A DNA stretch of 64,000 bases, from contig JAPLLG010000007.1 of assembly GCA_026387665.1 (NCBI GenBank), forward strand, positions 1 through 64,000, in the 5' to 3' direction. A program made the translations under genes and the position numbers. The stretch comes from Nitrospirota bacterium. Its GTDB lineage: Bacteria; Nitrospirota; Nitrospiria; Nitrospirales; Nitrospiraceae. Below, one piece after another: positions 8,723 to 53,761 of the stretch; positions within the stretch are counted from its first letter, which is position 1, and the number at the start of each line of letters is the position of its first letter. Under the pieces are notes generated by a model. That model saw only the letters and a program-made list of their open reading frames with translations. It made no database searches and was not told where the DNA came from.

Positions 8723-9169
8723 ATGTTGAAACTTCTCGGAGCTCTCGTCATGGCCGCCACGTTCTTCGGTCTCGGATTCTATCTCGGCCAACGTCCAGTC
8801 GGCACGTTGCAACACAGGATCTTGGACCTCCAACGTTCGATCACAACCCTGTCCAGGAATATTTACGACACCACGATGGGAGACCTTCGCAAACGACAGG
8901 CGCTGATCGACGGGAAATCACGGGTGGTACAAGCGAAATCAGAACTCTTGGAGAAGAACTTCGGAGAAGCCGCCAAGCAATTAAGCGAAGCGGCCGACAC
9001 GCTGGAGGAGGCTACCGCTGGTGCCAAACACGACGACACGACCCTCCCCTTGAAATCGCTCGCAGGGAAGCTCCGAGAACTCAAACTGGAATTGTCGATG
9101 GGAAAACCGGTGTCGATCAAGAAGATCGACGAGGTTCAAAGGGAGATCGACCGGCAGATCAATCGCTAA
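8723..9169 (+). CDS. Membrane-anchored coiled-coil protein
   Basis: 148 residues starting MLKLLGALVMAATFFGLGFY, a single N-terminal membrane helix followed by a long charged helical region (about 30-148) with heptad-like Leu spacing. The ATG at 8723 is preceded by AAAGGA. I know no family for it. It lies 16 nt after the exported HEAT-repeat protein on the same strand, so the pair probably forms one transcript and may work together at the membrane. It ends 3 nt before the stop of a convergent gene. Confidence 0.7.
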   Translation: MLKLLGALVMAATFFGLGFYLGQRPVGTLQHRILDLQRSITTLSRNIYDTTMGDLRKRQALIDGKSRVVQAKSELLEKNFGEAAKQLSEAADTLEEATAGAKHDDTTLPLKSLAGKLRELKLELSMGKPVSIKKIDEVQREIDRQINR

Positions 9170-9172
9170 CCG

Positions 9173-9991
9173 CTAGGCGTTGGCAGTCTGCTTCTTCCAC
9201 TTCGCGAGGATCCGCTCCACCCGCATCCGTACCACCATATCCGGATCTTTCATCAACGGCTTAATCGCATCGCGGCCCCGGTCATCGCCGATCGCCTCAA
9301 GCGCCGCCGCCGCAGTCAAACGGGTGAACCAATCTTTGTCGGCCAGCATGCCAATGAGGGGATCGATCGCCTCAGCGCTCTTGATCCGGCCCAGGGCCAT
9401 GATGGCCTGCTTCTGGACCATCTCGTCTTTGTCCTTGAGCGCGACGACCAGGCGAGAGACCGACGGAGCGCCAAGCTCGACAAGGGCATTGGTCGCATCG
9501 TCCTTGAATTCGTCATTTTTCAACTGCAGCATCAAGGGATCGAGAACGCGCTCATCGCGAATCTTCCCGAGCGCCGTAATCACGTACTTCCGCACATCCC
9601 AGTCGCGAAGCAACTTAATCAACAGTTCGACGGCGGGAGAACCGATTTGGCCCAGTCCCTCGATCGCCACTTCTCTGACTTGCCAGTCACCGTCACGCAA
9701 GGCGCTGCACAACGGCGCCACGCACCGTTCATCGCCCATTTCACCGAGCGTGATGGCCGCCTCGCGGCGCACGACCCAATCAGGATCCTTGAGCAGATCG
9801 ATCTGGATCTCGATCTCATCCTTGACCTTTTCCTCTTCAAGGACGGCATCTTCCGTCAGTTCCGCCGCCAGCGCAACCGTGGCCGGAGACTCTCCGGTAA
9901 AATCAGCCGCCACCTGGTCGGTCAATTCGTCGCTCACCGTCTCTACAACGGTAGGCGTCGCCTGCTCTTCTTTGGATCCTGCTTGTTCCAT
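9173..9991 (-). CDS. Cytoplasmic HEAT-repeat protein
   Basis: 272 residues with no signal peptide. After an acidic N-terminal tail of about 60 residues there are six or so HEAT/PBS-lyase repeats (DPDWVVRREAAITLGEMGDE, then VREVAIEGLGQIG and similar). These form a right-handed helical scaffold; similar proteins include phycocyanobilin-lyase-like HEAT proteins, but a lyase role is not implied in a non-phototroph. It lies 51 nt after the small basic protein and 3 nt from the opposite-strand coiled-coil gene. Confidence 0.8.
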   Translation of the reverse strand: MEQAGSKEEQATPTVVETVSDELTDQVAADFTGESPATVALAAELTEDAVLEEEKVKDEIEIQIDLLKDPDWVVRREAAITLGEMGDERCVAPLCSALRDGDWQVREVAIEGLGQIGSPAVELLIKLLRDWDVRKYVITALGKIRDERVLDPLMLQLKNDEFKDDATNALVELGAPSVSRLVVALKDKDEMVQKQAIMALGRIKSAEAIDPLIGMLADKDWFTRLTAAAALEAIGDDRGRDAIKPLMKDPDMVVRMRVERILAKWKKQTANA

Positions 9992-10042
9992 GGGTACTAC
10001 CTTAAATAATTCACTCGCCCGTCCACGACCTTGCCGCAGTGA

Positions 10043-10246
10043 CTACTTCTTCGCGGCCGTTTTCTTGCTCGCAGAGTTCTTCTTGCGCAACACGACCGTC
10101 CGCCGCTTCCGTTGCGTCCGCCGCAGCCGCTTCTTCAGCGAACGAAGCGCGTCATCCCCTTTAGGATCCTTGTGGCCGGTCAACTTCTCCGCCACCTTCT
10201 TTTTCAGTCTGGTTTCGTCCGATTCACTCGCCGTTGTTTTCGCCAT
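10043..10246 (-). CDS. Small Lys/Arg-rich protein
   Basis: A 67-residue, strongly basic protein ending KKNSASKKTAAKK, with a central Arg-rich stretch (KKRLRRTQRKRR). The tail resembles bacterial histone-H1-like proteins, so nucleic-acid or ribosome binding is plausible but only inferred. The ATG has GGGAGG upstream at a rather long spacing, and a good promoter lies at 10313-10342. Confidence 0.6.
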   Translation of the reverse strand: MAKTTASESDETRLKKKVAEKLTGHKDPKGDDALRSLKKRLRRTQRKRRTVVLRKKNSASKKTAAKK

Positions 10247-24193: not shown

Positions 24194-26077
24194 TCATGAG
24201 ACGTCACGCCCGAGATGCCACATCTCCAGCACAAGCAAGGCATAGATTTGGTCGGCAAAGTTCCGTCGGCCCGACTCATGTTCCTGGAGCAGCCATTGAA
24301 CATACTCAGGCTTCACGTAGCCACGCCGCTTAATTGCAGCATCCGACAAGAGATCCCTCACCATTTCACGAAGGTCTTCGCGCAGCCAACGGGCAAGTGG
24401 CACACGAAACCCCAGCTTCGCTCCCTTGACGATGGAAGGTGGAAGCACAGGCTGCAGCGCCTTGCGCATGAACCCCTTCAGCCTCCAGCCGGAAAATCTG
24501 GTTGAGGTAGGAAGCGAATAGGCAAACGAGAGCAACTCAGGATCACAGAAAGGCACGCGCAGCTCGAGCGAATGGGCCATGCTAAGCCGGTCTCCCATGC
24601 GAAGGAGATCGTCCGGCAGGTAGGTCTGCAAGTCCAGGCCCATGGCCCGCTCGGACGGATCATCGGAAGGCCAGTTATCAAAGAGGCGTCGATAGTCCGC
24701 CGCCGTATCCGTCGCCCCCCTCAGTCCAGAAAAGTCTTGGGCAAAGGCCGAGGCACCCCACTCTGATGGCACAAACGTGATCCACAGCCAATATTGCTCT
24801 GCCAGCGACAGATGCCCGTCCCGCAGAAACCGTTTCACACGGCCAAGCTGATCCCGGCTGCCTGCCCCCTCGGGAATCCTGGGCGCGAGAGAAGTACCGA
24901 TCCATGCTCGCAGGCACTGAGGCACCTGGGCATAGTGCGATGCAGCGCGAACGCCAAGATAACGAGGGTAGCCGCCGAATAGCTCGTCCCCGCCGATGCC
25001 GGACAAAGCGACCGTGACCGAACGTCTAGCCACTTCGGACACGAGATAGGTGGGAATGGCCGAAGAGTCGGCAAAAGGCTCTCCCATCGCTGCGACGATC
25101 TTCGGCAGCAAAGTCACCGCATCAGGGCGGAGCCGTTCCTCTGTATGATCGGCACCGAAGTGATCCGCTAACAGCCTGGCCTGATCCAATTCGTTATAGG
25201 AACGGTCTGCCTCATCTTCGTACCCGACTGAGAAACTGCGGATTGGTCCATTGGTCACTTGCCGCATCATGGCCAGAATCGATCCTGAATCGAGCCCGCC
25301 AGACAGAAACAGCCCGAGCGGCACATCGCTCACCAGATGGGCCTGTACCCGCTCACGTAAAAGTTCGAGGAACCGGTCCTCAGCATCGGCTTGCGACAGC
25401 CTAGTCCGAGATCCAGGCACATCAGTGGGATGGAAATACTGTTTTGTTTCGACCCTGCCATTAACGACTTTGAGCAGCTCTCCTGGCTGCAATTGACGAA
25501 CTCCCTCGAACAGAGTGCCAGGCCCCGGTACATAGAGCAGGGTCAGGTATTGCGCGATAGCCCGTGGGGCCACAGTATGAGGGGGGAGCGATTCCAACAG
25601 AGCCGGCAACTCCGAGGCAAAGGCCAGGCCGCCTGGCCAGGTCGCATAATAGAGGGGCTTGATCCCCAAGCGATCACGGACTAACAGCAGCGTCTGTCGT
25701 TCACGGTCCCAGAGCGCATAGGCGAACATCCCCTTGAGCCGCCTGACTCCCTCCTCGCCTTCCTGCTCGTAGAGATGAACCAAGACCTCTGTGTCACTAT
25801 TGGTCGCAAAACGATGACCCTTGCCGATCAGCTCCTCGCGCAGTTCGCGATAATTATAGATCTCTCCGTTGAACACCACCCAGACCGTGCGATCTTCATT
25901 GGCGATCGGCTGCTGCCCCCCTTGGGGATCGATCACGCGCAACCGCTGAATCCCCAGCAGGACTCCCGGCTCCCGGTGACTGCCGCTCTCATCAGGCCCC
26001 CGGTGCACGATCCGGCGCATCATCCGATCTAGCGTCGCCTCGTCTCCGCTCCCGACGATTCCGCAAATCCCACACAT
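24194..26077 (-). CDS. asnB: Asparagine synthase (glutamine-hydrolysing) family protein
   Basis: 627 residues. An N-terminal class II glutaminase domain with the catalytic Cys2 (MCGICGIVG) and RIVHRGPDESG, then the ATP-pyrophosphatase domain with LFLSGGLDSGS near residue 254-264. All key residues are present, so it can use glutamine as the amide donor. In a polysaccharide locus such enzymes often amidate uronic acids or other sugar carboxylates instead of making free asparagine; that role is inferred here. Its start overlaps the methyltransferase stop by 1 nt (TGATG). Contrast the lasso-type homologue at 48209, which lacks Cys2. Confidence 0.92.
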   Translation of the reverse strand: MCGICGIVGSGDEATLDRMMRRIVHRGPDESGSHREPGVLLGIQRLRVIDPQGGQQPIANEDRTVWVVFNGEIYNYRELREELIGKGHRFATNSDTEVLVHLYEQEGEEGVRRLKGMFAYALWDRERQTLLLVRDRLGIKPLYYATWPGGLAFASELPALLESLPPHTVAPRAIAQYLTLLYVPGPGTLFEGVRQLQPGELLKVVNGRVETKQYFHPTDVPGSRTRLSQADAEDRFLELLRERVQAHLVSDVPLGLFLSGGLDSGSILAMMRQVTNGPIRSFSVGYEDEADRSYNELDQARLLADHFGADHTEERLRPDAVTLLPKIVAAMGEPFADSSAIPTYLVSEVARRSVTVALSGIGGDELFGGYPRYLGVRAASHYAQVPQCLRAWIGTSLAPRIPEGAGSRDQLGRVKRFLRDGHLSLAEQYWLWITFVPSEWGASAFAQDFSGLRGATDTAADYRRLFDNWPSDDPSERAMGLDLQTYLPDDLLRMGDRLSMAHSLELRVPFCDPELLSFAYSLPTSTRFSGWRLKGFMRKALQPVLPPSIVKGAKLGFRVPLARWLREDLREMVRDLLSDAAIKRRGYVKPEYVQWLLQEHESGRRNFADQIYALLVLEMWHLGRDVS

Positions 26078-37948: not shown

Positions 37949-39724
37949 TCATGTCAACGCCTGCAGCTGACGCAATTCGTTGAATCGTCCCTGGGCGCGC
38001 GTGAGCTCAGTCCACGAGCCCGACTCCACAATACGCCCCTGCTCCATCACATAAATCCGATCAGCCCGCTGAATGGTCGCAAGGCGATGGGCCACGATGA
38101 CAACACTCATACTTCGGGCCAGCGTCTCAAGCGTCTTCTGGATCATGAACTCAGATTCGGTATCCAACGAACTGGTAGCCTCGTCCAGGATCAGGAGCGC
38201 TGGCTTCCGGATCAATGCCCGCGCGAGAGCAAGGCGCTGGCGCTGCCCCCCCGAGAGCAATACCCCCCGACTTCCCACAACGGTTTCGTAGCCCTGCGGC
38301 AGCCGTTGAATAAACTCGTCTGCATGGGACAGTCTGACGGCCGCTTCAACCTCTTCAGCTGTTGCGGTCGGCTTCCCCCACAATAAATTTTCCCGTATCG
38401 TCTCATTGAACAAACTGACTTCCTGCGGCACGTAACCGCACTGCCGATGCCAGTCATTCACATTCAGCTGATGCAAGGGCACTCCGTCCACCAACACGTC
38501 CCCCTGCGTGGGACGGATAAATCCCATGAGCAAGTCAATCATCGTCGTCTTCCCGCTCCCGGAAGGCCCCACGATCGCAATCGTTTCTCCCTTCCGCACC
38601 TCTAACGTCACACCACGAAGAACCGGAGCCTTATTCTCATAGGCAAACCACGCGTCATCGACACGAAATCCCTGCTGAATTCCGTGAAAAGGCACCCCCC
38701 CATTCCGTTCACGATGCTCTTGTGCAAGACTGGTTAGATCGGCCACATGCGCCACACTGGGAAGCAGCGACAATATCTCGTGCATAGTCATCTGGAGGTC
38801 AGACACCCTCGGTGTCAGACGAAATACGATGATGAGCAACACCATGATGTCGGACATCGGCATCTTGAAAACAGTCAGAGCGGCGTACAAGCCAGCCAGG
38901 AGTAGCGTCGCCGTCAGGGGCTGATACAAGGCACCCACCATCGTGCGATTTCTGGAATCTCGAATTTGCACATTCGCCAACGCCTGCACAGCCTTGGCGA
39001 ACCGATCGGCAGCATCACTAACGCCCCCGAAACCTTTCACCAATTTCGCGCTAGCCAGTTTTTCAACCGCCTCTTCCTGCACGCGTGCATACGCCAGGGT
39101 CGTTTCCGCCCCGTATTCCTGCCCCTTAGCCACACGCGCGCGGAAGAGATACAGGCCTGCCCCGGCAATCCCAACCGCAACCACGGCCATTTGCCACGAA
39201 AAAATGAGGGCCAGCGAGACGTAAATGAGAACCGCCACGCACTCGCGCACCAAGGCCATTAGATTCAAAAATGCGGCAGCAGCTCTTATAGGATCCAGAG
39301 TGAGTGCATTCGTCAGAATTCCGGTCTTCTGCTTCGCGATAAACTCCCAGCGCGCAGTAAGAATAGCTTCATACAAGGTGCTTCTGAGGAAACCGGCATA
39401 CTGAAAACGTGTACTATTGACCAGTCGTTCATTGAGAATGACCACGAGGCTCTGCAGGAAAAATATGGCCAACAGGACTATCAGCACACCCCCAAGCGTC
39501 GGGGAAAACCCGACCGCCTGCGTTGCCTGTTGGAACCACCCCAGTATCTTGGAGGGCGGCCCCGGCGTCCCGGTTGTTTCCATGCCTGCCAATGAAAACA
39601 TGGGTGCCAGCAACGCCAGCCCAACCCCTTCCAGCAAATTAGAGGCAATTCCAGCAGACACAATCAGCCACATCCTGAACGGATAGCGGTGGATCAGCCC
39701 TCTGGCAAACTCTACAACCGTCAC
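37949..39724 (-). CDS. ABC exporter, membrane and ATPase domains fused (MsbA-like)
   Basis: 591 residues with six membrane helices in the first 310 and an ATPase domain after. Walker A is VGPSGSGKTTMIDLLMG, signature LLSGGQRQRLALARAL, and Walker B LLILDEATSSLD. It is the only clear membrane translocator in the locus; no Wzx flippase is seen, so it may flip the lipid-linked glycan across the inner membrane. Confidence 0.93.
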   Translation of the reverse strand: MTVVEFARGLIHRYPFRMWLIVSAGIASNLLEGVGLALLAPMFSLAGMETTGTPGPPSKILGWFQQATQAVGFSPTLGGVLIVLLAIFFLQSLVVILNERLVNSTRFQYAGFLRSTLYEAILTARWEFIAKQKTGILTNALTLDPIRAAAAFLNLMALVRECVAVLIYVSLALIFSWQMAVVAVGIAGAGLYLFRARVAKGQEYGAETTLAYARVQEEAVEKLASAKLVKGFGGVSDAADRFAKAVQALANVQIRDSRNRTMVGALYQPLTATLLLAGLYAALTVFKMPMSDIMVLLIIVFRLTPRVSDLQMTMHEILSLLPSVAHVADLTSLAQEHRERNGGVPFHGIQQGFRVDDAWFAYENKAPVLRGVTLEVRKGETIAIVGPSGSGKTTMIDLLMGFIRPTQGDVLVDGVPLHQLNVNDWHRQCGYVPQEVSLFNETIRENLLWGKPTATAEEVEAAVRLSHADEFIQRLPQGYETVVGSRGVLLSGGQRQRLALARALIRKPALLILDEATSSLDTESEFMIQKTLETLARSMSVVIVAHRLATIQRADRIYVMEQGRIVESGSWTELTRAQGRFNELRQLQALT

Positions 39725-39828
39725 AAGACCATATCCTTTTGCATATTGTCGTTACTGCCCTGAGTGGCCTACACAAGGAAACAACGACGGCCGCACACCA
39801 GCGCACTGAATGTTAGAGGATTCAGAAA

Positions 39829-47504: not shown

Positions 47505-47789
47505 ATGAATATCCGCATCCCTAGCGATGTCGTCTTTCGAGATCTGTCAGGCGAGGGAGTCTTATTGAACCTGGCCACCGGCACCTACTTCGGGCTCGAT
47601 GAGGTCGGCACGAAATGCTGGCACCTGATCGGCTCACAGGGAACGTTGGAGAACATCGTCACGGCCCTGTTGCCCGAGTATGAGGTTGACGAACCGCGAC
47701 TCCGAAGCGATCTCACACGGCTCCTCCAGCAACTGACCGACAAAGGACTCGTCGTAATTGATCAGACAGAAACTCCAGCGGCTCACTGA
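47505..47789 (+). CDS. PqqD-like RiPP recognition protein (lasso B1/RRE)
   Basis: 94 residues. VVFRDLSGEGVLLNLATGTY and CWHLIGSQGTLENIVTALLP follow the PqqD pattern, a winged-helix fold that binds the leader of a ribosomal peptide precursor. As the first gene of a cluster with a B2 protease, a cyclase and a precursor it should act as the stand-alone recognition element (B1 or E). The ATG at 47505 has AAAGG upstream. The downstream B2 gene starts inside its last codons. Confidence 0.9.
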   Translation: MNIRIPSDVVFRDLSGEGVLLNLATGTYFGLDEVGTKCWHLIGSQGTLENIVTALLPEYEVDEPRLRSDLTRLLQQLTDKGLVVIDQTETPAAH

Positions 47790-48201
47790 CCTTTCGCTCA
47801 GAGACTGGCTCTGGCTTCCACCGCTCGTCTTGTCGGCCCTCGCGATCGCCATGGCAGTCAAGCTCGCCCCGCTCCCTGACATTATCCGATTCCTCGACCG
47901 ATCAGCCCGCCACCCTTGGATCGCCTTCCTGCAAATTGGCAATCGACTGCACGATCTGGACGAACTCGTCCGCCTGACCGGATTAGCTGCCAGGGTCGTC
48001 CAGGGGCCCGGTTGCTGCCTCAGCCGATCGCTGCTGCGTTTCTGGTTGCTCCGCGCCAGGCAAGAACCGGCCGAGTTGCTGATCGGCGTCGCAAAGAATG
48101 GAGACTTGCTTCAGAGTCATGCCTGGATCGAACAGCAAGGACTCGCCATCGATGCAGGTCACGAGCTGAACCGAACCTTCGTGCCTGTACTCCGGTTCTG
48201 A
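47758..48201 (+). CDS. Lasso peptide biosynthesis B2 protease (transglutaminase-like)
   Basis: 147 residues. GPGCCLSRSLLRFWLLRARQ (Cys87 the probable nucleophile), LQSHAWIEQQG (His121) and IDAGH (Asp132) give the Cys-His-Asp triad of the B2 family, which cuts the leader from the precursor. A hydrophobic N-terminus (16-36) suits membrane contact. The start is a TTG at 47758 with AAAGGA upstream; it overlaps the PqqD-like gene by 32 nt, an unusually large overlap. Confidence 0.92.
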   Translation: MIRQKLQRLTDLSLRDWLWLPPLVLSALAIAMAVKLAPLPDIIRFLDRSARHPWIAFLQIGNRLHDLDELVRLTGLAARVVQGPGCCLSRSLLRFWLLRARQEPAELLIGVAKNGDLLQSHAWIEQQGLAIDAGHELNRTFVPVLRF

Positions 48202-48208
48202 GGACTCT

Positions 48209-50143
48209 ATGAGCGGCATCGTCGGCAGCTACAATCTGAATGGCAAACCGGCAGAGCCTCTCGTGATCAGACGCATGACGAACCGCCTCGCGCACCGTGG
48301 ACCGGACGGGCTGACCTGTTGGCTTGACGGGCCGGTCAGCTTGGGCCATGCCATGCTTCAGACCACCCCTGAATCGCTCTTCGAACGGCAGCCTCTCTGT
48401 GAGGGCGCCCTCTGCCTCACGCTGGATGGCCGGATCGACAACCGGGACGAACTACGAACAGCTCTTGAGTCTCATGGCGCAACCATGCGTAGCGACACCG
48501 ATGCCGAACTGGTGCTGCGTGCCTACCAATGTTGGGGAAACGATTGCCCGATCCATCTCCTGGGCGACTTTGCCTTCGCCATCTGGGACGCCACCAAACA
48601 CGAACTCTTCTGTGCTAGAGATCAGATGGGAATCAGACCCTTCTATTATTTCGCCAATGACCGGACCTTCCTCTTCGCCTCTGAGCTCCGCCCCCTGCTC
48701 GACCATGCCGAGGTCCAACCTGAGCTGAACGAAGGCATGATCGGAGAATACCTGGCCTGCCAGATCACCAGCCAGGAAGAAACCCTCTACCGCCATCTCT
48801 TGCGCCTTCCGCCCGGTCATTGCCTCACCGTGAGTCCTGGCCGGTTCCGGGTGACCAGATACTGGGACTTCGATTCCTCCAAAGAGCTCCATTATGGAAA
48901 CGACGAAGCCTATCGCGATCATTTTCTGGCCCTCTTAACGGAATCGGTCCGCTGCCGTCTGCGGAGCCACAAGTCTGTCGGCTGTTACCTGAGCGGAGGG
49001 CTCGACTCCTCCTCGGTCGTCTGCCTCGCAGCCTCTCTCAAGAAAAACGGACTGGCCACTCAGGGCCTGGAAACATTCTCTCTGCTCTTTCCAGGACTGG
49101 CCTGCGATGAAAGCCCCTATATCCAGGACATAGTCCAACAGTGGGATATCCCCTCGAACACGATCTGCCTGGAAGCAGAACCGGAGGCATCATTTGTTGA
49201 ATGCGCCAAGCGAGACCGCGACTTTCCCGGTTATCCGAATGGAACTATGGGGAACCCCTTGAGAGCCCTCGCCAGGGATCGCGGGGTTCGGGTGCTCCTG
49301 ACCGGAACAGGCGGAGACGAATGGCTGACCGGCAGCTATCTCGGAGCAGGAGACCTCCTTCGCCAAGGAAAGCTTCAAACTTTACATCGCCGGCTCCGGA
49401 ATGACTTTGGCGCAACAGGCTTTCTCGACACCTTCGACATGGCCCTGCGCTATGGCCTCTGGCCACTGTTTCCTCAAGCCATGCGCCAAATCATCAGGCA
49501 GGGACTGGGACGTCATGGACTTCTCTCCTGGCTCAACCCAGATTTTGCCAGAAGGATTCATTTGCGCGACCGGATCCAACTGGAGCCGGACCGGAGTTCC
49601 TGCGCGAGCCTGGCGCAAGCAGACATTGCCCTGACCCTCAAGAGCGGCTGGTGGCCCCATATGTTCGAAATCGAAGACCGTGCGGCCTCCTGGTTCGCAC
49701 TGGAAGAACGGCATCCCTTTGCGGACCGTCGGCTCGCCGAATTTGCCGTATCGTTGCCGGAAGACCAACGTTGGCGAGGCCAGCAAACCAAATATCTCCT
49801 CCGCCAGGCGATGCGAGGCATCCTCCCAGAAACCGTGCGACAACGAACGACTAAGGCGGAATTCTCCACCGTCTTCCTCCAGGCTTTGCGCACCCTTGGA
49901 GGCAGCCATTTCTTCGACTCGTTACAGATCACGGCCATGGGCTGGGTCGATGCAGACAAGATTCGGCAGGCCTATTCCAACATAGAAGCCGGGGCAACCA
50001 ATAATCCTGACTCAGCCCCATCCGGCCTCTGGTCTCTCTGGATGGTCATCGGAATCGAACTGTGGCTTAGACATATGGCAGACCGCGACCGTTCATCGGA
50101 AGAGACAGCTCTTCACTGGAAGCCTGCAGCCCAATTGGCGTAA
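48209..50143 (+). CDS. Asparagine-synthase-like lasso cyclase (C protein)
   Basis: 644 residues. The glutaminase-like N-domain starts MSGIVGSYNL: Cys2 is replaced by Ser, so it cannot hydrolyse glutamine, as in many lasso cyclases. RLAHRGPDGLTCW follows. The synthetase domain has GCYLSGGLDSSSVVCLA (near 257-273), the ATP site that adenylates a side-chain carboxylate of the core, and LLTGTGGDEWLTGSY. It would form the isopeptide ring. The gene follows the B2 gene by 7 nt with GAGGA upstream, and the precursor gene comes 36 nt later. Confidence 0.93.
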   Translation: MSGIVGSYNLNGKPAEPLVIRRMTNRLAHRGPDGLTCWLDGPVSLGHAMLQTTPESLFERQPLCEGALCLTLDGRIDNRDELRTALESHGATMRSDTDAELVLRAYQCWGNDCPIHLLGDFAFAIWDATKHELFCARDQMGIRPFYYFANDRTFLFASELRPLLDHAEVQPELNEGMIGEYLACQITSQEETLYRHLLRLPPGHCLTVSPGRFRVTRYWDFDSSKELHYGNDEAYRDHFLALLTESVRCRLRSHKSVGCYLSGGLDSSSVVCLAASLKKNGLATQGLETFSLLFPGLACDESPYIQDIVQQWDIPSNTICLEAEPEASFVECAKRDRDFPGYPNGTMGNPLRALARDRGVRVLLTGTGGDEWLTGSYLGAGDLLRQGKLQTLHRRLRNDFGATGFLDTFDMALRYGLWPLFPQAMRQIIRQGLGRHGLLSWLNPDFARRIHLRDRIQLEPDRSSCASLAQADIALTLKSGWWPHMFEIEDRAASWFALEERHPFADRRLAEFAVSLPEDQRWRGQQTKYLLRQAMRGILPETVRQRTTKAEFSTVFLQALRTLGGSHFFDSLQITAMGWVDADKIRQAYSNIEAGATNNPDSAPSGLWSLWMVIGIELWLRHMADRDRSSEETALHWKPAAQLA

Positions 50144-50179
50144 TCTCTTATCGTAAAATACACAAAGGAGGAACGTGCC

Positions 50180-50338
50180 ATGGCTCAAGAACCAGTCCCG
50201 ACCGACAAGAAAAAACCCTATCGCTCCCCCACCCTGACAGAATACGGAAACGTGGCCAAGCTCACGGAAGAGAAGGAGGGATCAAAAGCGGACGGAAGGT
50301 CTGGCATGCTCATGTTCACACAGAAGCAGGATAAATGA
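50180..50338 (+). CDS. Lasso-type RiPP precursor peptide
   Basis: A 52-residue ORF with a strong AAAGGAGG site. The leader fits the lasso consensus YxxPxLxxxGxxxxxT exactly: Tyr14, Pro17, Leu19, Gly23, Thr29, as in KPYRSPTLTEYGNVAKLT. If Thr29 is at -2, as usual, the core begins at Glu31 and runs EKEGSKADGRSGMLMF onward to Lys52. Asp38 would be core residue 8, the normal isopeptide acceptor position. Glu at position 1 is atypical (Gly is usual). Core Arg40, Ser35, Ser41 and Thr47 could be targets of the methyltransferase and kinase encoded next. The product is a RiPP, but a true lasso fold is not proven. Confidence 0.88.
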   Translation: MAQEPVPTDKKKPYRSPTLTEYGNVAKLTEEKEGSKADGRSGMLMFTQKQDK

Positions 50339-50371
50339 TCCAATTCACCAGTCACCCTATGAGGCCGCTTC

Positions 50372-51514
50372 TTGTCGCTCATCCTGGATGAACACCGCCA
50401 GTACCTCTCCGATCTGGCTCGCCTAGCCGCCTTTCGTGCTGCCATTCAGGAAGTCATCAAGCCTGGCGACGTCGTCGTGGACCTTGGTGCAGGAACCGGC
50501 ATTCTAGGCCTGCTCGCCTGCCGAGCCGGCGCTGCACGCGTCTACTCGATCGAGAGCACCGGCCTGATCCAGCTCACCAGAGACATCTGCGCAGCCAATG
50601 GATGCAGCGATCGAACCCAGTTCATCAACGAGCTGTCCGCCCAAGCCTCGCCCCCGGAACTGGCGGATGTCGTCGTCGCCGACCAGATCGGCTGTTTCGG
50701 TTTCGAAGCAGGTCTCTTTGAATATTTCCGTGATGCGCGAACTCGATTTCTCAAGCCAGGCGGAATCACGATTCCTTCGCGAATCGACCTAGTCGTCGCA
50801 CCGATCGACGCGCAACAGCTGCGAGACCAGGTCGAGTTCTGGAATACGGCCCCAGCAGAATTCGACTTTCGTCCGGTCAGAGCCCTCGCGGTCAATAGCA
50901 GCTACCCGGCCACCTTCACCCCTGACCAACTCCTAGGTGACCCGGCGATCCTGGCTTCCCTCGCCGCCTCCAATGCGCCCCCGTCCTTCCTGGGTCTGAC
51001 GGCGACTGCGACGGTCTCCCGACCTGGGACTCTTCATGGAATTGGTGGATGGTTTTCAGCAACTTTGTCTCCATCGATCACGCTGACCAACTCGCCCCTG
51101 AGCGAAAACAGGATCGATCGCCAGAACATGTTTTTCCCCATCGACCAGCCGGTCCCTGTCGTCCTCGGTGACCGCATCCTCATCACCATGAACATCCTGC
51201 CGACTGACATGGTGATCACCTGGAACGTGGCTGTACTGGGAGCCACCGGAGACGTCATCAAGGCCAGCTTCTCCCATTCGACCTTCCACGGCATGCTCCT
51301 ATCGAAGGAATCGTTACAGAAAGCCAAGCCTGATTTCGTCCCGATCCTCACCCCCAGGGGCGACGCCAGACGAACAGTCCTGGAACTCTGTAATGGCAAG
51401 AGCACTCTCGCGGAAATCGAGCGCGAAACCTACCGGCGCCATTCAACACTGTTCCGCAGCCTCGATGAAGCAGCGAAATTCGTTACCGAAGTCACGACCC
51501 GCAATACCCTATGA
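50372..51514 (+). CDS. PRMT-like methyltransferase fused to a PqqD-like domain
   Basis: 380 residues. The N-terminus (DEHRQYLSDLARLAAFRAAI) and motif I VVDLGAGTGILGLLA (residues 35-49), Glu61, and ADQIGCFGFEAG (Asp104, Glu112, in the place of the double-E loop) resemble protein arginine methyltransferases; the first catalytic Glu appears as Asp. A beta-barrel region follows. Residues about 322-376 (RRTVLELCNGKSTLAEIERE) look like a PqqD/RRE leader-binding domain. So the enzyme could bind the precursor leader and methylate the core, with Arg40 the simplest target. The start is a TTG at 50372 with GAGG 7 nt upstream. Confidence 0.82.
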   Translation: MSLILDEHRQYLSDLARLAAFRAAIQEVIKPGDVVVDLGAGTGILGLLACRAGAARVYSIESTGLIQLTRDICAANGCSDRTQFINELSAQASPPELADVVVADQIGCFGFEAGLFEYFRDARTRFLKPGGITIPSRIDLVVAPIDAQQLRDQVEFWNTAPAEFDFRPVRALAVNSSYPATFTPDQLLGDPAILASLAASNAPPSFLGLTATATVSRPGTLHGIGGWFSATLSPSITLTNSPLSENRIDRQNMFFPIDQPVPVVLGDRILITMNILPTDMVITWNVAVLGATGDVIKASFSHSTFHGMLLSKESLQKAKPDFVPILTPRGDARRTVLELCNGKSTLAEIERETYRRHSTLFRSLDEAAKFVTEVTTRNTL

Positions 51515-52539
51515 CCCTCTCGCTGGATCGGCCATCCCAACTCCTCTGCTACCAAGTCAGCGGCATCACCCTGGGCAGCGACGTACCGCTCTTGGAGCTG
51601 GCTCCCACTGAAGGTCTAAACCCTGCCGATGGCTGGGACATCCGCGTCCGTTTTCTTCCTGAGTCGACTCAGTCCCTCTGCCCCTCCTCCTGGTTCCTCA
51701 CCATGGCATTGCCGGGCGAGGAGCCTTGGTTATCTTGCGCAGACATCGAAGAGCAGGCCCTGCTCGGAGGCAAGCCAGGCTATCTTCTCCGCTTGCATGA
51801 CCTAGCAGATTTCCTGGTGGACCGGCAGGGAACGGATGTCGTCGCGCTGGCCAGCCACGAGACGCCGCCGGAGACGCTGCATCACATCCTCTTAAACCAA
51901 GTGCTCCCATTGGTGCTCAATCTACGAGGACAGGATGCACTCCATGCCACAGCCGTGCTGACGCCTCAAGGCATCTGCGCCTTCGCCGGACCGGCCGGCG
52001 TCGGCAAGTCCACGCTGGCCGCCAGCTTCCTGCTCGCTGGCTATCCGGTGATCAGCGACGATTGTCTCGTGCTCAAGGAACAGGAGGGCAGGATCGTCGC
52101 AGTGCCAGGCTATCCAGGGCTCCGGCTCTGGGACGATGTCGCCCAAAGTCTCTCTCTCGATCCAGGCCACCTCAGCTCAGTGGCCCATTACACAGCAAAG
52201 CATCGTTTGCTTCTCCCAAACCAAAGCCAGGCCTTTCCAACTGAGCCACTCCCACTCACTCGGCTCTACATCCTCTCGCCACCCGAAGCCCCTGAAGCTC
52301 GCAACAAGGCAGCAGCGATCAGTCTCCGGCCATTCCAGCCGCGCCACGCCTTCATGGAACTCCTCTCCTGCCTCTTCCGACTGGACATCAGAGACAAAAC
52401 GATGCTGGCCAGGCAGTTCTGCTTTATCGAACGGCTCGTGGACCAAGTTCCCGTCAAACAATTATCGATCCCTCAGACCGTCTCGGCCCTGCCAGCGGTC
52501 CGTGATGCAATCCTGGCCGATCTGCTCCATGAAATCTGA
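51511..52539 (+). CDS. HPr-kinase-like lasso peptide kinase
   Basis: 342 residues. GPAGVGKSTLA (160-170) is the P-loop, HATAV lies just before it, and VISDDCLVL with Asp183/Asp184 matches the HPr kinase catalytic region. Homologues in lasso clusters phosphorylate a C-terminal Ser of the precursor; here the precursor ends in Lys, so another Ser/Thr or a different substrate is implied. It overlaps the methyltransferase by 4 nt and the next gene by 11 nt. Confidence 0.88.
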   Translation: MTLSLDRPSQLLCYQVSGITLGSDVPLLELAPTEGLNPADGWDIRVRFLPESTQSLCPSSWFLTMALPGEEPWLSCADIEEQALLGGKPGYLLRLHDLADFLVDRQGTDVVALASHETPPETLHHILLNQVLPLVLNLRGQDALHATAVLTPQGICAFAGPAGVGKSTLAASFLLAGYPVISDDCLVLKEQEGRIVAVPGYPGLRLWDDVAQSLSLDPGHLSSVAHYTAKHRLLLPNQSQAFPTEPLPLTRLYILSPPEAPEARNKAAAISLRPFQPRHAFMELLSCLFRLDIRDKTMLARQFCFIERLVDQVPVKQLSIPQTVSALPAVRDAILADLLHEI

Positions 52540-53761
52540 CCAGCAAGACAGGCTCTGCTTCCCCTTGAGCCATAAAGACGAAGTACTCCTCTGCCTGGCC
52601 CATCCGAAGCTGAGCACGAAACGGAGCCAACGATTAGCCAACCTCCTGGTTTCCCCCACGGACTGGGCGGAACTCCTCGACCAGGCAGACCGGCATGGGA
52701 TCACACCTCTGCTCCATCATCACCTGAAGCAGGCTCCCGCTCTCACGATTCCCGAGACAACAAGAACGACATTGGCCGAGAGATCCCGTTCCTGCCTGGC
52801 CTGGAATCTCCGCCTCAGTCACGAACTGCTCTATCTCTTAGACCGATTCAACGAGGCAGGCATTCCCGTCATGCCCTTGAAAGGCCTCTACCTGGCCGAT
52901 CTCCTCTACAAAGACTCCGCCCTGCGCCCGACGTCGGATCTCGATCTCCTGGTGAAGGTCCAAGATTTTGAGGCAAGCCAGCAGATCCTCGAAGAAGCAG
53001 GCTGCACGAAACTGGCGGATGAGGAGCAAGGAGCGGAATACCACGTCTCCTATGTCACGACCAATGAACGAGCGGGACACGTGCTGATCGAATTACATAG
53101 GGCCCTGGGGGAAAGTCATGTGGCAGGACTCGACATCGAAGCGGTCTGGCGCTCGGCTACTCCGATCATCTGGGAAGGACGGACGATCTGGACAATGGCC
53201 ATCCCGGACCTCTTCCTCTACACCTGCCTCCATGCCGTAAAGGATGGGCTGGCCTCGATACGATCCTTACTCGACATCACTTTGTTGCTGGAGCGCTATG
53301 GCCAGAACTTGCCCTGGCAGGAACTGACACAACGAGTGAAACAAGCGAGGATCGAGACCCCCGTCTCTCTCAGCCTTCTCTTGAGCCGTGAGCTGTTGGA
53401 AGCCTCTCTCCCCTCAGAATTTCTGGCAGCCATCCGGCCCTCGCGAAACCTGAGCCGGCTCCTCGGCCAGGCGCTCTTCAGATGGAGAGGCGGAGTCCTG
53501 CATGTGCCGCAAGAATTGCTCGTGGGACCCTTCATGGCCCTGCTGATGTTGTGCTGGGAGGACTCGCTCAAAGGAAAACGGCGGCACCTACGTCGCAACC
53601 TACTGCCCTCAGAGAAGCTGCAAGGCCGCTGGATATCGCAAACGCACACCTCGACACCATTCCGTCGCTACCAGGCCTGGCTCTGGGAAATCTGCCTTCG
53701 TCTCACCAGTCAACTGACTGCCCGCTCCCATTCCAGACAGCCAGGCGCTCCGCGCCATTAA
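52529..53761 (+). CDS. Nucleotidyltransferase-family protein of the RiPP cluster
   Basis: 410 residues. LRPTSDLDLLV (Asp137, Asp139) and the preceding PLKGLYLADLLY form the metal-binding site of the Nucleotidyltransf_5-like family, often found beside HPr-kinase-like lasso kinases. The middle and C-terminal regions are helical. It may add a nucleotide or sugar-phosphate group to the peptide; the chemistry is not established. It ends the cluster, 98 bases before tRNA-Arg. Confidence 0.87.
   Translation: MKSDQQDRLCFPLSHKDEVLLCLAHPKLSTKRSQRLANLLVSPTDWAELLDQADRHGITPLLHHHLKQAPALTIPETTRTTLAERSRSCLAWNLRLSHELLYLLDRFNEAGIPVMPLKGLYLADLLYKDSALRPTSDLDLLVKVQDFEASQQILEEAGCTKLADEEQGAEYHVSYVTTNERAGHVLIELHRALGESHVAGLDIEAVWRSATPIIWEGRTIWTMAIPDLFLYTCLHAVKDGLASIRSLLDITLLLERYGQNLPWQELTQRVKQARIETPVSLSLLLSRELLEASLPSEFLAAIRPSRNLSRLLGQALFRWRGGVLHVPQELLVGPFMALLMLCWEDSLKGKRRHLRRNLLPSEKLQGRWISQTHTSTPFRRYQAWLWEICLRLTSQLTARSHSRQPGAPRH

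Follow-up and report, generated by a model that had tools for sequence, protein, structure and literature searches.

Bacteria of the genus Nitrospira play a central part in nitrification in water and soil. In a 64,000-nucleotide stretch of DNA from a Nitrospirota bacterium (hereafter the window; contig JAPLLG010000007.1 of a 2.64 Mb assembly), a short open reading frame raises the question of whether it encodes a lasso peptide precursor, and of where the core of such a peptide would begin.

The precursor and the predicted start of its core

The ORF at 50180–50338 (+) translates into 52 residues, MAQEPVPTDKKKPYRSPTLTEYGNVAKLTEEKEGSKADGRSGMLMFTQKQDK. A strong ribosome-binding site, AAAGGAGG, lies at 50164–50171 (+), 8 bases 5′ of its ATG, and gaps of 36 and 33 bases separate the ORF from the preceding asparagine-synthetase-like gene and the following methyltransferase gene, respectively. 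Its product scores 21.3 bits against the lasso leader domain NF033521, above the curated cut-off of 19; NCBI models would therefore name the ORF if it were called. The single curated lasso peptide family that it touches is NF033528 (lasso_cyano), at 21.8 bits and below the cut-off of 33; all 13 precursors of alignment A1 match this family at E values up to 0.1. A six-frame scan of the window gives a single occurrence of the strict motif Y..P.L...G.....T, for which 60 order-1 Markov sequences predict 0.017 per 64 kb; 314,250 bp of other Nitrospirota DNA contain none. Two close relatives retain the ORF, with purifying change. Between the window and the relative G002, dN is 0.10 and dS 0.37 in the leader, and dN is 0.19 and dS 1.65 in codons 31–45, which are rough values because the stretches are short and the second dS is saturated. 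The ribosome-binding site, the NF033521 match, the rarity of the motif, and the purifying change bear out the preliminary description in treating the ORF as real, and it very probably encodes a lasso peptide precursor in a nitrifying bacterium.

In lasso leaders, Tyr, Pro, and Leu occupy positions −17, −14, and −12, and Thr usually occupies −2 (PMC10368454; this and the other papers cited were available in part). With a core starting at Glu31, Tyr14, Pro17, Leu19, and Thr29 of the window precursor fall on these four positions with no gap. Together with Gly23, they reproduce exactly the leader rule YxxPxLxxxGxxxxxT that had been claimed for them. The predicted leader comprises residues 1–30 (50180–50269, +), and the predicted core, EKEGSKADGRSGMLMFTQKQDK, comprises residues 31–52 (50270–50335, +), with a putative ring from Glu31 (codon 50270–50272) to Asp38 (codon 50291–50293). 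Both residues are located as described earlier, and the non-glycine start holds by the ruler; the charged start at Glu31 is a sequence-based prediction.

The Leu-Thr pair is found at +14/+15 from the Tyr in all 24 Nitrospirota precursors, including that of the window. Ruler position 1 is Gly in 15 of them, Lys in three, and Glu, His, Ser, Thr, Leu, and Met in one each. The charged starts belong to five precursors (Glu in the window, His in G002, and Lys in G010, G041, and G060), and the other precursors with an assigned ring carry Gly, Ser, or Thr. A small residue at position 1, which is usual but not defining for lasso peptides, is absent in the window, where the ruler gives Glu31. Lasso peptides starting with Trp1 and Leu1 exist. 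The start residues listed as observed are Gly, Cys, Ser, and Ala, with Asn reported as a first case (PMC12670498); by that list, a Glu, His, or Lys start would be new.

An acid is found at ruler core position 7–9 in 22 of the 24 precursors (position 8 in 12, position 9 in nine, and position 7 in one). The remaining two, G089 (L075) and G461 (L132), are counted among the 24 and are divergent precursors with extra residues between the leader Leu-Thr and the acid, for which the ruler gives no acid at these positions. Asp38, proposed as the ring acceptor at core position 8, is conserved in all 13 rows of A1. The alignment of neighboring precursors suggested at that time thus supports one of its two residues: Asp38 is conserved and Glu31 is not. 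The variation of Glu31 is no argument against a ring, since position 1 supplies only its α-amine. The core had also been called long and rich in charged residues. Its length of 22 residues is ordinary, as reported lasso cores span 13–33 residues (PMC13352647) and those of the relatives range from 14 to 40. Its charge content is indeed high, with 9 of 22 residues charged, compared with 4–5% in nine of 20 relatives; two relatives (G067 and G056) exceed it.

The main alternative, which we regard as unlikely, places the start of the ring at Lys32. Cleavage after Glu31 would then leave Thr at −3 and yield a 7-residue Lys1–Asp7 ring. The alignment column of Lys32 is Lys in all five charged-start precursors, with Gly-Ser/Thr two residues on, whereas the column of Glu31 reads Glu, His, a gap or Gly, Lys, and Lys. 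A Gly1–Asp7 lasso ring is known from huascopeptin, as cited in PMC13352647. Furthermore, G010, the nearest relative by cyclase and methyltransferase, has a precursor one residue shorter, so that the ruler gives either a Lys-start ring of exactly 7 residues, with Thr at −2, or a Gly-start ring of 8 residues with Thr at −1. However, with a Lys32 start, four of the five precursors would depart from the Tyr(−17)/Thr(−2) spacing, to which all the other precursors with an assigned ring conform. Since the leader ruler is otherwise kept, a free position 1 is favored over the Lys32 start. Less probable still is a start at Glu30, by which a 9-residue ring would follow directly on Thr at −1. Glu30 is common to four of the five window-like precursors, and rings of this size are assigned to nine other precursors, but residue −1 is Gln in most relatives, of which Glu is a near equivalent, and Thr(−2) is the literature rule (PMC10368454, PMC12670498). 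The ring Gly-Ser at positions 4–5 also matches the other 8-residue rings only with the Glu31 start.

The lasso enzymes and the distribution of the operon

The precursor gene (A) lies in an operon of seven genes in the order B1-B2-C-A-MT-K-NT, all on the + strand, spanning 47505–53761. B1 (47505–47789, +) encodes a stand-alone leader-binding protein (RRE) of the PqqD type. It scores 64 bits against PF05402, over the Pfam cut-off, and lies below the lasso-specific PqqD models (56 bits against NF033536, lasso_PqqD_Bac, with a cut-off of 80); it was aligned with 15 linked B1 proteins. B2 (47758–48201, +) encodes a lasso leader peptidase of transglutaminase-like fold (NF033537, 55.4 bits, cut-off 33), in which Cys87 and His121-Ala-Trp are invariant in 13 of 13 rows. 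C (48209–50143, +) encodes a lasso cyclase homologous to asparagine synthetase (NF033535, 539 bits, cut-off 525). The protein is full-length, contains SGGLDSS, and has Ser2 in place of the glutaminase Cys. Residue 2 is Ser in all 17 linked C proteins and Cys in each of the 10 other AsnB-like proteins that the same search retrieved, and SGG(L/V)DSS is kept in all the linked C proteins. The RRE, leader peptidase, and lasso cyclase are therefore present beside the precursor. This intact B1-B2-C set, the exact leader rule, and the conserved acceptor Asp uphold the earlier reading of the ORF as a lasso precursor.

The linear modified peptide that had been offered as another outcome is at odds with an intact cyclase that carries the lasso-type change from Cys2 to Ser2. 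A linear RiPP, or a decayed precursor that is no longer cyclized, would agree with the charged core and with the lack of an exporter beside the genes. We nevertheless judge it very improbable, because the linked cyclases have lost the glutaminase cysteine, B2 retains its catalytic residues, the acceptor Asp is shared among the aligned precursors, and comparison of relatives gives dN values well under dS. The key residues kept in C, B2, and the kinase described below point to a product that is cyclized and phosphorylated rather than linear.

A motif scan of 22 cluster loci, including the window, revealed no McjD-type exporter beside the lasso genes. The sole ABC-exporter-like ORF in the window, at 37951–39751 (−), lies within a polysaccharide export region at 24194–46651 (−), which contains Poly_export/SLBB, a Wzy_C ligase, and a glycosyltransferase. 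This region also holds a second AsnB-like protein and a radical SAM/SPASM protein.

A profile built from the 13 precursors of A1 was run against 175 genomes of the family, of which 22 match, with per-genome E values as low as 1e-26; in a phylum-wide sample of 395 genomes, 16 match. The two sets together give 25 genomes with a match, and the precursor was read in 24 of them, including the window; in G117, which matched the profile, the motif script found no precursor in the locus, and this genome was left out of the counts. All seven genes occur together in nine loci (the window, L065, L067, L068, L070, L071, L072, L098, and L099), and L095–L097 are cut off by contig ends. The A-MT-K-NT order recurs in Nitrospiraceae, with B1-B2-C adjacent or, in two genomes, elsewhere: in G300 (L066 and L119) and G373 (L069 and L120), the two blocks are on different contigs. 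B2 was not found by tblastn in L064 and L073. In G067, G089, and G247, the search of the locus detected no MT; nor was one detected between A and K on the short G056 contig or in the 3-kb G461 locus. In L121 (G415), the match to the cyclase gene at 8723–10195 (−) is split into two parts and lacks about 175 residues, and the precursor is intact; this cyclase gene, which is decayed, deleted, or mis-assembled, was left out of the cyclase tree. A plasmid search for charged-start or MT-type clusters gave a single weak record for MT, whose annotation reads ribosomal protein methyltransferase, and none for B2; with C, it returned mostly asparagine synthases and a few lasso-annotated matches. That the ORF arose by chance and bears no relation to the operon is hardly credible: it is short and has no Pfam match, but the rarity of its motif, the strength of the profile matches, and its place between C and MT, which is kept in many genomes, contradict this reading.

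The cyclase tree separates a group of the window, G002, and G010 (100/100) from one of G041 and G060 (100/100), with their mutual placement unsure. In the MT tree, the five charged-start members and G049, which starts with Ser1, make up a six-member group (98/98), and the K tree leaves the charged-start members ungrouped. The three trees do not establish a single origin of the charged starts.

The methyltransferase and the other tailoring enzymes

The gene following the precursor, MT (50372–51514, +), has a TTG start and encodes a methyltransferase with a helical C-terminal lobe (PRMT_C, PF22528, 36 bits). Its model aligns with CARM1/PRMT structures at a Z score of about 29 over 300 residues, and the profile comparison with PRMT gives an E value of about 1e-38; the protein has the PRMT fold of a Rossmann domain and a β-barrel. 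This methyltransferase is also found in the lasso operons of L064, L065, L067, L068, and others. The double-E loop and the THW loop are the arginine-recognition features of protein arginine methyltransferases. In the alignment with PRMT2, ADQ stands in place of the double-E loop SEW, the second Glu lies one residue off, and THW is not kept. Moreover, Lys and Arg are absent from 11 of the 19 MT-linked cores. Methylation of a core arginine is therefore unlikely, and we rejected it as the general function of MT.

Met is present at least twice in each of the 19 MT-linked cores. Among the five cores without MT, four contain no Met, and that of G461 has two at a poorly placed leader/core junction, so that its count depends on the core start. 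The association between Met and MT gives a Fisher value of 0.00017 (17/17 versus 0/4), in a comparison that ignores shared descent and leaves out G461. Six cores (G027, G042, G370, G373, G464, and G479) have Met-rich tails ending in Cys-Leu (for example, ...SMMMMCL). These tails are suggestive of metal binding or of Met modification.

When the C-terminal lobe of MT was folded alone, the top-listed structure was Xanthomonas PqqD (3g2b; Z 6.5, 50 residues, 2.4 Å), tied with ribosomal proteins. The lobe was modeled as helices only, with the β-strands of an RRE not modeled. The profile comparison between the lobe and B1 gives a probability of 0.1%, a value obtained from two shallow profiles (Neff 1.8 and 2.5). 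A search of PDB profiles produced one chance match, and Pfam nothing convincing. RRE homology by sequence was accordingly dismissed; the modeled fold, faintly like PqqD, gives at most a hint that the lobe may bind the leader.

K (51511–52539, +) encodes an HprK-related kinase that scores 30 bits against TIGR04352, below the cut-off. Its His145, Lys166, Asp183, and Asp184 are invariant in 20 of 20 linked kinases, and such a His-Lys-Asp-Asp set is described for lasso kinases (PMC9266682). The kinase target in paeninodin-type lasso peptides is a C-terminal Ser (PMC9266682). None of the 24 precursors ends in Ser, and that of the window ends in Lys. All 22 precursors with an assigned ring have a ring Ser/Thr. 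Of the 12 eight-residue rings, 10 have Ser5; the nine nine-residue rings and the single seven-residue ring all have Ser/Thr4. BsfK phosphorylates ring Ser3, and its cluster also has a nucleotidyltransferase (PMC10368454). On the basis of this precedent and of the distribution of Ser and Thr, Ser35 is the predicted kinase target. The last gene, NT (52529–53761, +, with its ATG at 52529), encodes an NTP_transf_5 protein (PF14907, 188 bits) in a PsmN/BsfN-like place in the cluster. PsmN has been linked to the attachment of a hexose to phosphoserine (PMC9266682), and the window protein is predicted to act likewise. Phosphorylation, addition of a further group, and methylation are all predicted steps.

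The proposed product and related systems

From the ORF, its operon, the leader motif, the conserved ring acid, and the families and key residues of the enzymes, we infer that the product is probably a phosphorylated and further tailored lasso peptide with an 8-residue Glu1–Asp8 ring and non-arginine methylation by the PRMT-fold enzyme. The cleavage site, ring closure, threading, and tailoring sites would be as follows. B1 would bind the YxxPxL element of the leader, and B2 would cut after Glu30. C would adenylate Asp38 and join it to the α-amine of Glu31, closing the Glu1–Asp8 ring. The tail, GRSGMLMFTQKQDK, would thread the ring, and its bulky Met/Leu/Phe stretch would probably provide the plugs. 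The kinase would probably phosphorylate the precursor at a ring Ser/Thr, namely Ser35 (core Ser5), and the NTP_transf_5 protein would then add a further group at phosphorylated Ser35. The PRMT-fold enzyme would methylate something other than arginine. The proposal is weakened by the small or neutral position 1 of solved lasso peptides (PMC12670498), the variability of Glu31, the shorter precursor of G010, the lack of an adjacent exporter in 22 loci, and the NF033528 score below its cut-off. A bolder reading, which we consider doubtful, is that this Nitrospira lineage has relaxed the small-residue ring start, with cyclases that close on Glu, His, or Lys, and that the PRMT-fold methyltransferase uses a PqqD-like leader-binding lobe of its own to modify a site other than arginine that may lie in the Met-rich tail.

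Formation of Glu1 and Lys1/His1 rings would mean that lasso cores are being sought and trimmed by too narrow a start-residue rule, and would recommend the Nitrospira cyclases as starting points for engineering. The natural series of Glu, His, Lys, Gly, Ser, and Thr at position 1 on similar machinery offers a test of cyclase tolerance. The presence of a PRMT-fold enzyme among lasso genes suggests an additional kind of modification, and non-arginine methylation by such an enzyme, if true, would be new to lasso peptides. The literature covered, in which the papers were available in part and subscription papers lay mostly outside the scope, yielded no described Nitrospira lasso peptide, no Glu1, Lys1, or His1 lasso peptide, and no PRMT in a lasso cluster. 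Judged by sequence, the window ORF very probably encodes a true lasso precursor; no earlier description of its predicted charged start residue was found there, and an unusual methyltransferase accompanies it.

Among known systems, the bsf cluster of Bradymonas sediminis (PMC10368454) shares discrete B1 and B2 proteins, C, a kinase, a nucleotidyltransferase, and the YxxPxL leader, as well as a kinase acting on a ring Ser (predicted in the window) and a non-Ser C-terminal residue. It differs in its ABC transporter, Ile at −2, and Gly1, whereas the Nitrospira system combines Thr at −2 with a PRMT-fold methyltransferase, no exporter was detected beside its genes, and the window precursor has a predicted Glu1. 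The paeninodin and pseudomycoidin systems (PMC9266682) share the HprK-like kinase with His-Lys-Asp-Asp, and pseudomycoidin also the nucleotidyltransferase-like protein; in both, the C-terminal Ser is modified, in contrast to the Nitrospirota precursors, which lack such a residue. Metanodin, an Asn1 lasso peptide from an uncultured bacterium, shares a non-canonical ring position 1 and Thr at −2, and its precursor was not flagged by antiSMASH (PMC12670498). Its Asn1 is neutral, unlike the Glu of the window and the Lys and His of its siblings, and its operon and tailoring genes are different. Methylated lasso peptides share the presence of a dedicated methyltransferase in the cluster, but those described are C-terminal carboxyl methyltransferases, as for lassomycin and StspM, or PIMT-type aspartimide methyltransferases (PMC9266682), whereas the window enzyme combines a PRMT fold with a helical lobe.
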